The translations under genes were made by a program, and so were the position numbers. The notes below the pieces were generated by a model, which worked only from the letters and a program-made list of their open reading frames with translations, searched no databases and was not told the origin of the DNA. This document shows, one piece after another, positions 29,371-41,097 of a stretch of 64,000 nt of DNA (position 1 is its first letter; the number at the start of each line of letters is the position of its first letter). Source of the DNA: Nitrososphaerota archaeon (GTDB lineage: Archaea; Thermoproteota; Nitrososphaeria; Nitrososphaerales; Nitrosopumilaceae). The stretch lies in assembly GCA_028867755.1 (NCBI GenBank), contig JAGWFT010000001.1, positions 660,727 to 724,726 of the forward strand. Reading direction: 5' to 3'.

Positions 29371-29481
29371 ATGGGCGAAAACCACAGGGGATTTGACGAA
29401 CCAAATCGCAAACAAAGGCAAAGAAGAGCTAAAAAGGCAAGGAAAGTGCAGAGGGAGGGATTTGAACCCCCGAACCCCTAA
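29371..29481 (+). CDS. Short basic ORF running antisense into tRNA-Leu (36 aa)
   Basis: ATG at 29371 opens 36 codons with a very basic middle (RKQRQRRAKKARK) that enter the tRNA-Leu gene on the opposite strand and stop at 29481. TTCTAATAAAG at 29343-29353 is placed like a TATA box. The end (REGFEPPNP) is only the antisense of the tRNA T-arm, a well-known false-ORF signature, so this is doubtful. Confidence 0.25.
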   Translation: MGENHRGFDEPNRKQRQRRAKKARKVQREGFEPPNP

Positions 29482-29545
29482 AGGAAAGGATTTCCCATGC
29501 CAGATCTTGAGTCCTTCTCGGTTGGCCGGGCTTCGATACCTCTGC
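29447..29545 (-). tRNA. tRNA-Leu(CAA) with 14-nt intron
   Basis: The 7-bp acceptor stem is perfect (29539-29545 with 29448-29454), discriminator A at 29447, no encoded CCA. The T-arm has loop TTCAAAT; a long variable arm marks Leu. The anticodon stem AAGGA/TCCTT only closes if 14 nt (29492-29505) after position 37 are removed. The junction is canonical: CTCA pairs TGGG over 4 bp, with bulges AG|A and AA|A. The loop is then CTCAAGA with anticodon CAA. Confidence 0.93.
29492..29505 (-). other. 14-nt BHB intron in tRNA-Leu (position 37/38)
   Basis: Intron starts after G37 and ends before A38. It has a 7-nt loop and no inner helix, so it is a reduced bulge-helix-loop substrate for the tRNA splicing endonuclease. 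Confidence 0.85.
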
Positions 29546-36021: not shown

Positions 36022-36144
36022 TGGTCCCACGCGCAGGATTCGAACTTGCGACTCTCCGGTTTCTGTAAGCCTGATAGGCTGATGACGGTCAGCCGAGAGC
36101 CAACCACTACAGCCGGATGCTCTACCAGGCTGAGCTAGCGTGGG
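36022..36144 (-). tRNA. tRNA-Tyr(GTA) with 46-nt intron and encoded CCA
   Basis: Acceptor stem CCCACGC/GCGTGGG (36138-36144 with 36026-36032), discriminator A at 36025 and encoded CCA at 36022-36024. The C1-G72 pair is the archaeal tRNA-Tyr identity mark. The anticodon stem is TCCGG/CCGGA; the loop carries GTA. A 46-nt intron follows G37 with a canonical BHB: CTGT pairs ACAG, bulges AG|T and AA|A. The T stem has one A-C mismatch (second-last pair). Confidence 0.95.
36061..36106 (-). other. 46-nt BHB intron in tRNA-Tyr (position 37/38)
   Basis: The intron holds its own hairpin (GGCTGA pairing TCAGCC) between the splice-site bulges. No open reading frame fits inside it. Confidence 0.88.
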
Positions 36145-36933: not shown

Positions 36934-37341
36934 ATGAGCAAGCCTTCTGAACTTGGTGCACTAAAAATTGGATCTTATATCTTGTTACCTGTTGATGCTA
37001 CAAGCCAGGAGCCATGCAAGATAGTGGAATACGATACCAGCAAACCAGGAAAGCACGGAGCTGCAAAGGCAAGAATTGTTGCAGTCGGTATATTTGACAA
37101 GAAAAAATACCCACACGTATCACCTGTGAGTGCACAGGTGCAGGTGCCGCTAATTGACAAGAGGGTAGGCTCTGTTATATCAAAAACTGAATCAGTAGTA
37201 CAGGTGATGGACTCTGAGACTTTTGAAGTCTTTGATGTGTATCAGATAGAAGAAGAAGTGGCAGACAAGGTTGCTCAGGGACAAGACGTTGAATACTGGA
37301 AAGTAATGGATAGAACTATTATAGTCCGAATCAAGAGCTAG
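36934..37341 (+). CDS. eif5a: Translation initiation factor 5A (aIF5A)
   Basis: A 135-residue factor that helps ribosomes through difficult peptide bonds. The hypusine loop SKPGKHGAAKARIV has the modifiable Lys40; the C-terminal OB domain follows (VQVMDSETFEVFDVYQIEEE). The deoxyhypusine synthase is not in the window. A C/D box sRNA begins 4 nt after its stop and may be cut from the same transcript. Confidence 0.95.
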   Translation: MSKPSELGALKIGSYILLPVDATSQEPCKIVEYDTSKPGKHGAAKARIVAVGIFDKKKYPHVSPVSAQVQVPLIDKRVGSVISKTESVVQVMDSETFEVFDVYQIEEEVADKVAQGQDVEYWKVMDRTIIVRIKS

Positions 37342-37345
37342 GTTC

Positions 37346-37419
37346 GGATGCTGATGATGACGAGAAAAGCCATCTGACGATTCATGCCATGATGAAGATT
37401 ATGAGTAATTGAAGCATCC
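37346..37419 (+). ncRNA. C/D box sRNA (2'-O-methylation guide)
   Basis: A 74-nt element with full archaeal C/D architecture: terminal stem GGATGCT/AGCATCC (37346-37352, 37413-37419), C box ATGATGA (37354-37360), D' box CTGA (37374-37377), C' box ATGATGA (37389-37395) and a D box read as TTGA (37409-37412). The two guide spacers are 13 nt each, the D'-C' spacer 11 nt, matching the fixed archaeal spacing. The guide before box D is complementary to TTACTCATAATCT, which contains a CAT-anticodon-loop-like CTCATAA; targets are unproven. Confidence 0.85.
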
Positions 37420-37612: not shown

Positions 37613-38296
37613 TTGATACTTGGATCGCTTTTCTCAGGAGGAAAAGATAGTGCATTTGCAGTCTATAAAGCAAGGTCTGAAGGCCATAACATATCATGTC
37701 TTGTTACAGTCTTTCCAAAATCTGAAGAAAGTCATCTATTGCACCATCCAAACATCAGACTGACTGCACTTCAGGCAAGAGCAATGAACATCCCACAAAT
37801 TACTATACCACTTGATTCTGATAACACCCGAGTAGAAGTCGACGAGATAAAAAATGCACTAAAGACTGCAAAGGAGAAATTTGGGATAGAGGGGGTGGTA
37901 CATGGTGGAATTCGTAGTGCATTTCAGAAAAACCACTTTGAAACAATTTGTCGTAGCTTGGACCTTAGAGTGATTGCCCCGCTCTGGAATGTAAATGAGG
38001 AAGCCTATTTGCATGAACTTGTACAATGTGGATTTGAGTTTGTCGTAACAAGTGTAACTGCACAGGGTCTTGATGATTCATGGCTTGGCAAGATCATAAC
38101 TTTACAAGATGTTGAAAAATTAATTTCAATATCGTCCAAGTTTGGATTCAATGCATCATTTGAAGGAGGGGAGGCTGAGACGTTTGTTGTTTCATGTCCT
38201 TTGTTTTCTGGGCACATCAGGATTGTAAAATCAAACAAGACATGGGATGGGTACAGAGGAAGGTTTGAAATAACCGAAGCTGTTTTGGAAGAATAA
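37613..38296 (+). CDS. dph6: Diphthine--ammonia ligase (Dph6)
   Basis: The last step of diphthamide synthesis on elongation factor 2. The 227 residues belong to the MJ0570/Dph6 ATP-pyrophosphatase family: PP-loop SLFSGGKDSAFAV, VVHGGIRSAFQKNHFE, LDDSWLGKII and FEGGEAETFV. The start is TTG, since no ATG or GTG fits. Its stop shares one base with the srp54 ATG (TAATG). Confidence 0.92.
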   Translation: MILGSLFSGGKDSAFAVYKARSEGHNISCLVTVFPKSEESHLLHHPNIRLTALQARAMNIPQITIPLDSDNTRVEVDEIKNALKTAKEKFGIEGVVHGGIRSAFQKNHFETICRSLDLRVIAPLWNVNEEAYLHELVQCGFEFVVTSVTAQGLDDSWLGKIITLQDVEKLISISSKFGFNASFEGGEAETFVVSCPLFSGHIRIVKSNKTWDGYRGRFEITEAVLEE

Positions 38297-39621
38297 TGCT
38301 AGACAGCCTCAAGACTGGCCTCCGGGCTGCACTAAAAAAAATAGTCAATTCGTCTGCAATAGATGAAGCACTAATCAAGGAACTATCAAAAGACATTCAG
38401 AGAGCACTGCTACAATCTGATGTTAATGTAAAACTCGTATTTCAAATCACAAAAAATCTCGAAGAGCGCTCACTCAATGAGACTCCGCCTCCGGGACTAT
38501 CAAGAAAGGATCACATTGTAAAGATCTTGTATGATGAGCTTTCCAAACTGTTGGGCACAGAAAATGAATATGTTTTCCAGCCAGGAAAGATGAATCGTGT
38601 TCTAATGCTTGGAATACAGGGAAGTGGCAAGACTACGATAACATCGAAACTTGCAAAACATCTGACAAAGCAAGGGTACAGGGTGTGTGTTATTGGTGCA
38701 GATACATACAGGCCTGGGGCACTGACACAGCTCAAGACAATGTGTGAAAAGGCAAATGTCGAAGTATATGGAGAAGAGGGAAATAAGGACTCACCTGAGA
38801 TTGTAAAAAATGGACTGAAACATTTTGAGGGAAAGAACTTTGATATTATATTAATCGATACGGCAGGACGACATAAGGAAGAAAAGGATCTACTCGAAGA
38901 GATGACACGAATCAGCCAGGTTGCAAGTCCAGATTTGGCATTGCTTATCATTGATGGTACAATAGGCCAGCAATGCTATAATCAGGCAGAAGCATTTCAC
39001 AAGATAGTACCGGTCGGTGGTATTATCATAACAAAACTTGATTCAAGTGCAAAAGGTGGTGGAGCACTTGCTGCAGCAGCTGCTACTGGTGCTAGAATAA
39101 TGTACATAGGTACAGGTGAGCGAATTGATGACCTTGAAAAGTTTTCACCAACTAGATTTGTAGGAAGAATGCTTGGGATGGGTGATATTCAGGCTCTGCT
39201 TGACATGGCTGCAAGACTTGAGACCGAAGGAAATGAAGAGAGACTCAAGCGCATATCGCACGGCAAGATGAACATGGAAGATTTCTATTTTCAGATAGAA
39301 GAGGCAACAAAGGCGGGAGGCCTGAGAAGCATAATGGAGAACATGCCTGGAATCTCTGGGATGGTAAAAGAAGACCAGCTAGACCAACAGGAAGAACGTA
39401 TGGAAAGGTGGCGATATGTTATCCAGTCTATGACAAAAGAGGAAAAGGCAGATCCAGACTTGATAAATGCATCACGAGTAAAGCGAATTGCTAGGGGTTC
39501 TGGGTGGCCAGAACACGAGGTAAAGGAGTTACTCAAGGCTTACAAAAATTCAAAGACCATGATGAAAGCATCAAAGGGTCGCCAGATGCAGGGACTGTTG
39601 CGCAAGATGGGCCTTGGATAG
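38296..39621 (+). CDS. srp54: Signal recognition particle GTPase SRP54
   Basis: A 441-residue SRP core GTPase that delivers nascent membrane and secreted proteins. N-domain helices, then G1 GIQGSGKTTITSKLAKHL, DTYRPGALTQL, G3 DTAGRHKEE, G4 TKLDSSAKGGGAL, and the methionine-rich M domain with MGDIQALLDMAARLE and the C-terminal RQMQGLLRKMGLG. Coupled to dph6. SRP19 is at 32.5 kb. Confidence 0.96.
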   Translation: MLDSLKTGLRAALKKIVNSSAIDEALIKELSKDIQRALLQSDVNVKLVFQITKNLEERSLNETPPPGLSRKDHIVKILYDELSKLLGTENEYVFQPGKMNRVLMLGIQGSGKTTITSKLAKHLTKQGYRVCVIGADTYRPGALTQLKTMCEKANVEVYGEEGNKDSPEIVKNGLKHFEGKNFDIILIDTAGRHKEEKDLLEEMTRISQVASPDLALLIIDGTIGQQCYNQAEAFHKIVPVGGIIITKLDSSAKGGGALAAAAATGARIMYIGTGERIDDLEKFSPTRFVGRMLGMGDIQALLDMAARLETEGNEERLKRISHGKMNMEDFYFQIEEATKAGGLRSIMENMPGISGMVKEDQLDQQEERMERWRYVIQSMTKEEKADPDLINASRVKRIARGSGWPEHEVKELLKAYKNSKTMMKASKGRQMQGLLRKMGLG

Positions 39622-40460: not shown

Positions 40461-40499
40461 CATTGCACTATGTAATCATGTATGGCTATGACATTAGCC

Positions 40500-40551
40500 T
40501 TGGAATGAGTTTCCTAAACCGCTCCTGAAAGGTGCTGATAATGTCTACCTA
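40500..40551 (+). promoter_or_regulatory. Fluoride riboswitch aptamer (crcB motif) candidate
   Basis: The conserved crcB-motif segments occur in order and spacing: ATGAGTTTCC (40505-40514), AAACCGC (40516-40522), a short stem CTCC/GGTG, CTGAT (40535-40539) and TCTACC (40544-40549). It closely parallels the Thermotoga petrophila fluoride aptamer, GATGAG...AAACTGCCCTGAAAAGG...CTGATG...CTCTAC. It lies upstream of crcB, the fluoride channel gene. The pseudoknot pairing is weaker than in thermophiles (about 3-5 bp with G-U or a bulge), so it is a variant or degraded form. Confidence 0.68.
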
Positions 40552-40570
40552 ATGAAAATTAATAGGTAGA
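40544..40570 (+). promoter_or_regulatory. Alternative stem overlapping aptamer 3' end and Shine-Dalgarno motif
   Basis: A perfect 8-bp inverted repeat: TCTACCTA (40544-40551) and TAGGTAGA (40563-40570), 11-nt loop. The left arm is the aptamer's conserved 3' end; the right arm contains the AGGTAG 4-9 nt before the ATG at 40574. Aptamer folding and this stem exclude each other, the form of a riboswitch expression platform (fluoride ON). The switching is inferred. Confidence 0.55.
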
Positions 40571-40573
40571 TAA

Positions 40574-40711
40574 ATGAACAAAAAAATCAAAAACAAAAAG
40601 GGAGCGGGAAAGTATCCTAGCGTATCCACTAATACTTGCAATGATCATCTTGATGATATTATGAATTTACAGATAGTAAATTTAAGTAACAATACGCCTA
40701 GGCAGATATGA
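40574..40711 (+). CDS. Upstream ORF coupled to crcB (45 aa)
   Basis: ATG 40574 opens 45 codons, starting MNKKIKNKKGAGKYPSVS and ending NNTPRQI; hydrophilic, no known family. Its TGA (40709-40711) overlaps the crcB ATG (40708-40710) as ATGA, the arrangement of translational coupling. AGGTAG sits just before it, inside the alternative stem. It could pass riboswitch control to crcB; the peptide itself may not matter. Confidence 0.5.
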   Translation: MNKKIKNKKGAGKYPSVSTNTCNDHLDDIMNLQIVNLSNNTPRQI

Positions 40712-41097
40712 AAATGATAGAGCTTGCATTTCTTGCTGCTGGTGGGCTGGGAGGAACTTTTCTAAGATATGGTATTACAAAGTCTCCCTTACTTCTTGGC
40801 GCATTGCCTCTAAATGTATTAATTGCAAATGTTGTAGGAAGTTTCATTCTTGGTATTTTTGCTGTACTTTCACAACAGTGGAATCTTGATGAAAAGTATA
40901 CGTTATTGATGGCAATTGGATTCTGTGGAGGATTGACTACAATGTCCTCATTTGCATTAGAGTCATCCAATCTGATTGATAATAAGCAATATGTCCTTGT
41001 AGCAGTAAATGTACTAACTAATGTTGGTTTGTCATTAGGAGCAATATTTTGTGGTAAATCTCTAGTAAGCGCAATTCTAGGTGCTGAATTTAAATGA
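40708..41097 (+). CDS. crcB: Fluoride exporter CrcB/Fluc
   Basis: A 129-residue four-helix fluoride channel that acts as a dual-topology dimer. Motifs: GGLGGTFLRYGI, LPLNVLIANVVGSFILGIF and GFCGGLTTMSSFALES. The usual TTFSTF phenylalanine box reads TTMSSF, so the first pore Phe is Met. It is a single crcB rather than a crcB pair. It is coupled to an upstream ORF and, by a 4-nt overlap, to a DUF190 gene. Confidence 0.92.
   Translation: MKMIELAFLAAGGLGGTFLRYGITKSPLLLGALPLNVLIANVVGSFILGIFAVLSQQWNLDEKYTLLMAIGFCGGLTTMSSFALESSNLIDNKQYVLVAVNVLTNVGLSLGAIFCGKSLVSAILGAEFK

Follow-up and report, generated by a model that had tools for sequence, protein, structure and literature searches.

A conserved double-guide box C/D small RNA in a Nitrososphaerota archaeon, predicted to target 23S rRNA and elongator tRNA-Met

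Directly behind the eIF5A gene of a Nitrososphaerota archaeon (assembly GCA_028867755.1, contig JAGWFT010000001.1) lies a stretch of 74 nucleotides (nt) that the original prediction took for a box C/D small RNA (sRNA). Is it a guide RNA, which RNAs would its two guides address, and does its position behind eIF5A matter? We analysed the surrounding 64,000 nt (positions 660,727 to 724,726 of the contig; hereafter the window), in which the element occupies 37346-37419 on the forward strand. The sequence comparisons described below point to a double-guide C/D sRNA whose D' guide would be aimed at C2510 of 23S ribosomal RNA (rRNA) and whose D guide would be aimed at the anticodon loop of the elongator methionine transfer RNA (tRNA-Met). 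We give this reading a probability of roughly 0.88.

Results

An ordered box array conserved across the class

The element begins with the 5' arm of a terminal stem, GGATGCT (37346-37352), which forms seven perfect pairs with the 3' arm AGCATCC (37413-37419). Between the arms follow a single G (37353), the C box ATGATGA (37354-37360), the 13-nt D' guide CGAGAAAAGCCAT (37361-37373), the D' box CTGA (37374-37377), an 11-nt D'-C' spacer (37378-37388), the C' box ATGATGA (37389-37395), the 13-nt D guide AGATTATGAGTAA (37396-37408) and the D box TTGA (37409-37412). The order of the boxes, the lengths of guides, spacer and stem, and the TTGA in place of CTGA, all part of the original prediction, are borne out base for base. 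Kink-turn (k-turn) geometry calls for a three-nucleotide bulge, and G37353 supplies it together with the first A and T of the C box; the register of both the C and the D box follows from this. When the two strands of the window were scanned with the consensus, exactly one such array was returned, and nothing comparable arose in 400 first-order Markov simulations of 64 kilobases (kb), in agreement with the earlier view that chance would not easily produce it.

A search of named contigs placed the relatives among Nitrosotalea-like Thaumarchaeota. More than 50 parsed relatives keep the boxes, the cores of both guides and the stem, a check that had been named beforehand; ATGATGA is retained as C and C' box, the UGA of the D and D' boxes is invariant, and the D'-C' spacer varies from 3 to 12 nt. 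We trained a covariance model on 32 sequences, and it matched 320 of 400 genomes of the class, in 60 of 82 genera, often at a distance from eIF5A. E-values of trained sequences are inflated by construction, including that of the window's own element (81.3 bits, E 5.3e-20), and independent support comes from untrained families and from the wider phylum. Orders and families outside the training set were matched at E about 1e-8 to 1e-11, and both guides could be read in untrained matches that included genomes G129, G112, G109, G101 and G106. Some genomes of the wider phylum also matched, mostly from family f25; the matches that were read there keep the D' guide as GAAGAGCCG and have different D guides. 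In the terminal stem, 100% of the 224 cells of the 32 sequences were paired, with 10 changes on both sides, and its covariation score was reached by no shuffle. Taken together, the box order, the k-turn stem, the deep conservation and the stem covariation uphold the identification as a C/D box sRNA.

A predicted 23S rRNA target of the D' guide

The sequence ATGGCTTTTCTCG, which had been put forward for comparison with rRNAs and tRNAs, matches 23S rRNA in the helix 90 region. Wherever both sequences were available, in 23 genomes, the D' guide matches one and the same 23S site with 8 to 10 contiguous pairs (GGCUUUUC for the window's guide), and the nucleotide opposite the fifth position upstream of the D' box is C2510 in 23 of 23 (E. 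coli numbering throughout, assigned from the flanking GAUGUCGGC). This residue adjoins the peptidyl-transferase centre. Within the window's family the target reads UCGGCUUUUCC, in the other genomes UCGGCUCUUCC; the corresponding D' guides read GAAAAGCC and GAAGAGCC, by which the pair at 2512 is restored. Read from the alignments, guide nucleotide 7 covaries with 23S position 2512, an A in the guide standing opposite a U in the rRNA in the window's family (13 genomes) and a G opposite a C in the 10 others. A complementarity scan of 16S rRNA gave no consistent guide match.

A predicted tRNA-Met target of the D guide

The genome's own CAU tRNA gene (G000:C35:191829-191923, minus strand) contains a 19-nt intron. 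Among 54 orthologues the intron measures 11 to 41 nt and lies between CCAG and ACTCATAATCTGG, from which we place a noncanonical intron at 30/31; splicing there leaves a perfect anticodon stem CCAGA/TCTGG and the loop CTCATAA. In 52 of the 54 genes a bulge-helix-bulge helix is present as TGCC:GGTA, TGCC:GGCA or CGCC:GGCG; its two strands covary, TGCC occurring with GGTA or GGCA and CGCC with GGCG, which supports this intron position. The D guide can pair with 11 exon nucleotides, positions 31-41, and its complement ACTCATAATCT lies entirely in exon 2. Since another CAU tRNA (L091) has only the loop in common with this target, the guide is specific for the intron-containing CAU tRNA, which by its sequence we take to be elongator tRNA-Met. 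The earlier suggestion of a target with a CAT anticodon loop is thereby substantiated and given a name. In 32 of 42 genomes checked, the wobble base C34 stands opposite N+5, the fifth nucleotide upstream of the D box.

The covariance model and a pattern search found no tRNA-Met guide in the window's own genome beyond the window copy. A single further hit had a C-like box (locus L311), and it resembles protein-coding sequence.

The D' guide is the better conserved of the two: in G078, G062, G071, G084, G063 and G042 it is kept and the D guide differs. In G075 the D guide is GATCTTGAGT, which could pair with the anticodon loop of a tRNA-Leu(CAA) such as the one in the window's genome. The sRNA in question (L271 159-224, minus strand) combines the 23S D' guide with a D guide of the tRNA-Leu(CAA) type, an apparent case of retargeting within one sRNA. 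A second sRNA family with the D guide GATCTTGAGT was seen at L357, L358, L359-L361 and L363-L366, that is, in one congener (L357) and in other genera. At 29447-29545 on the minus strand the window itself carries a tRNA that ARAGORN missed; it contains an insertion, its loop reads CTCAAGA, and it is probably tRNA-Leu(CAA).

Altered D guide length in the window's clade

Most relatives, and the rest of the window's genus, have a D guide of 12 nt, a length that fits C34 exactly; the D' guide of nearly all relatives has 13 nt. A 13-nt D guide occurs, however, in the window and eight of its relatives, and an 11-nt one in G017 and G018. These 11 genomes form one group in the eIF5A tree (support 99/96), and the two with 11 nt fall within it. 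Under the strict fifth-nucleotide rule, applied to the parsed sequences, the methylated position would be U33 with the 13-nt guides, where C34 stands opposite N+6, and A35 with the 11-nt guides. The 8-nt guide core TTATGAGT is identical in all 11 genomes, and the tRNA-Met exons are unchanged in the clade wherever they were found. We think that the tRNA-Met anticodon loop would still be the target of the clade's 13-nt guide.

What the D guide does in this clade can be read in more than one way. It may pair with tRNA-Met without methylating it, or act as a folding chaperone, leaving methylation to the D' guide at 23S rRNA. The occurrence of 13-nt (nine genomes) or 11-nt (two genomes) guides against 12 nt in the rest of the genus speaks for this, as does the replacement of the D guide beside a retained D' guide in G078, G062, G071 and G063. 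Yet the invariant core in all 11 genomes suggests continued selection, and with no second tRNA-Met guide found in the window's genome the modification would be lost; we regard this reading as possible but somewhat unlikely. Applied strictly, the rule would move the methyl group, to U33 with a 13-nt guide and to A35 with an 11-nt guide, and the stem fixes the position of the D box. However, the tRNA-Met of the clade has not changed, and the U-turn of the anticodon loop involves the 2'-hydroxyl of U33, so that methylation there would be expected to be harmful. We consider such a move quite improbable. A broader proposition starts from the shifted distance between the conserved anticodon-loop guide and the D box in the 11-species clade: methylation would fall on an unexpected position of the loop, U33 or A35, or else take place at C34 against the strict rule. 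It is advanced here as a tentative and, on balance, unlikely one.

Relation to eIF5A and neighbouring features

The eIF5A (aIF5A) gene occupies 36934-37341 on the forward strand (Pfam PF21485, E 1.3e-17). Its stop codon TAG lies at 37339-37341 and the element starts 4 nt behind it, as predicted; from this gap, gene and sRNA probably share one transcript. In DNA searches, eIF5A and the sRNA were recovered as one locus within the genus and the family; in other genera the sRNA matched by itself, at a distance of roughly 0.2 to 18 kb from eIF5A or in another part of the genome. The location directly behind eIF5A, although correctly described for the window, is on this comparison lineage-specific and no part of the element. 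This also bears on the idea that the element is no guide RNA but a cis-acting k-turn in the 3' untranslated region of eIF5A that binds L7Ae and regulates the gene. Its start 4 nt behind the stop codon would suit such a role, and RIP-seq suggests that L7Ae regulates translation in archaea by way of k-turns (PMC5539422). We rejected cis-regulation as highly improbable, however, because the RNA is found away from eIF5A in other genera, and two guides complementary to 23S rRNA and tRNA-Met would not be kept in a regulatory element. A chance arrangement of the boxes has a negligible probability in view of the empty simulations and the conservation across the class.

Genes for a diphthamide synthase (PF01902) and SRP54 lie downstream of the sRNA (37613-39621, plus strand), so that the locus groups translation-related genes. 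Elsewhere in the window, an intron-containing tRNA gene with about 46 extra nt (36025-36144, minus strand) was found by the genome-wide tRNA covariance model and missed by ARAGORN and by the Rfam scan of the window. A fluoride riboswitch (Rfam RF01734, 38 bits; 40475-40554, plus strand) precedes a CrcB-like open reading frame at 40708-41097.

Discussion

Its sequence features mark the element as an archaeal box C/D sRNA with two guides, of known kind and new to Rfam at threshold. It has the RUGAUGA-type C and C' boxes of the class, a k-turn with a C-D terminal stem of 7 base pairs in the three-nucleotide bulge register, and a predicted D' target at the fifth upstream nucleotide. No Rfam family matched at threshold; sR41, sR43 and sR3 show weak, box-driven similarity of 12-14 bits against cut-offs of 41-54 bits. 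In the literature searched we found no C/D sRNAs described for this archaeal class and no thaumarchaeal set.

Several observations weigh against this reading. The D box is TTGA rather than the CUGA of the class; it is ATGA, GTGA or TTGA in most of the family and CTGA in G067 and G098. Both guides have 13 nt, compared with the 10-12 nt stated for archaeal C/D sRNAs (PMC7994747). The window's own assembly gave no rRNA match, so that the 23S pairing was read from congeners. In the window's genus this pairing runs over no more than 8 contiguous pairs, against 9 or 10 in other genera, and falls short of the nine base pairs that Dennis 2015 (PMC4644070) sets as a criterion; the joint change of guide and rRNA may represent a single evolutionary event. 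Finally, C34 opposite N+6 departs from the register of Cm34 guides, and we therefore did not file the window copy among the sR-tMet-like guides, despite the regular register in most of the relatives checked.

Position 34 of tRNA-Met is addressed by C/D RNAs in other organisms. In Haloferax, a C/D ribonucleoprotein makes Cm34 of elongator tRNA-Met (Joardar 2011, as cited in PMC6601510 and PMC4033218), and the Haloferax volcanii sRNA sR-tMet is likewise a guide aimed at C34. It resembles the present element in its target; here, however, the intron of the tRNA is at 30/31, and 23S rRNA is the predicted target of the other guide. The target of sR-tMet is reportedly the intron-containing tRNA-Met precursor. 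Pyrococcus has wobble-position C/D sRNAs for Leu(CAA), Leu(UAA), Met and Trp (reviewed in PMC7994747), of which the one for tRNA-Met also guides position 34; the second guide of the present element differs in having a conserved 23S target. Human SNORD97 and SCARNA97 methylate C34 of elongator tRNA-Met(CAT) (PMC6601510). They are a functional parallel only, being eukaryotic and two RNAs, and we claim no homology. For the 23S site, the D' target residue is, by the offset in numbering, possibly equivalent to C4456 of 28S rRNA, which serves as a lead only. SNORD49, listed as the guide for 28S C4456 in helix 90 (PMC12288042), is unlike the element in being eukaryotic and having a single listed target.

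By analogy with the class, the sRNA would be processed out of the eIF5A transcript, L7Ae would bind both k-turns, and Nop5 and fibrillarin would assemble on the RNA. The nucleotide opposite the fifth base upstream of D' or D would then be placed in the active site of fibrillarin. The D' guide would likely direct methylation to 23S C2510, giving Cm2510, and in most relatives the D guide would likely give Cm34, which would restrict the Met anticodon to AUG. In the window's clade, with its longer D guide, methylation might occur at C34, at U33 or not at all.

The class thus gains a guide RNA that is both well supported and deeply conserved. Its two predicted sites are part of the translation machinery: one is the wobble base of tRNA-Met, the other a residue close to the peptidyl-transferase centre. 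Since the guide comes in lengths of 11, 12 and 13 nt among close relatives and the tRNA stays constant, these species would provide a natural experiment on how strictly the C/D distance rule is followed.
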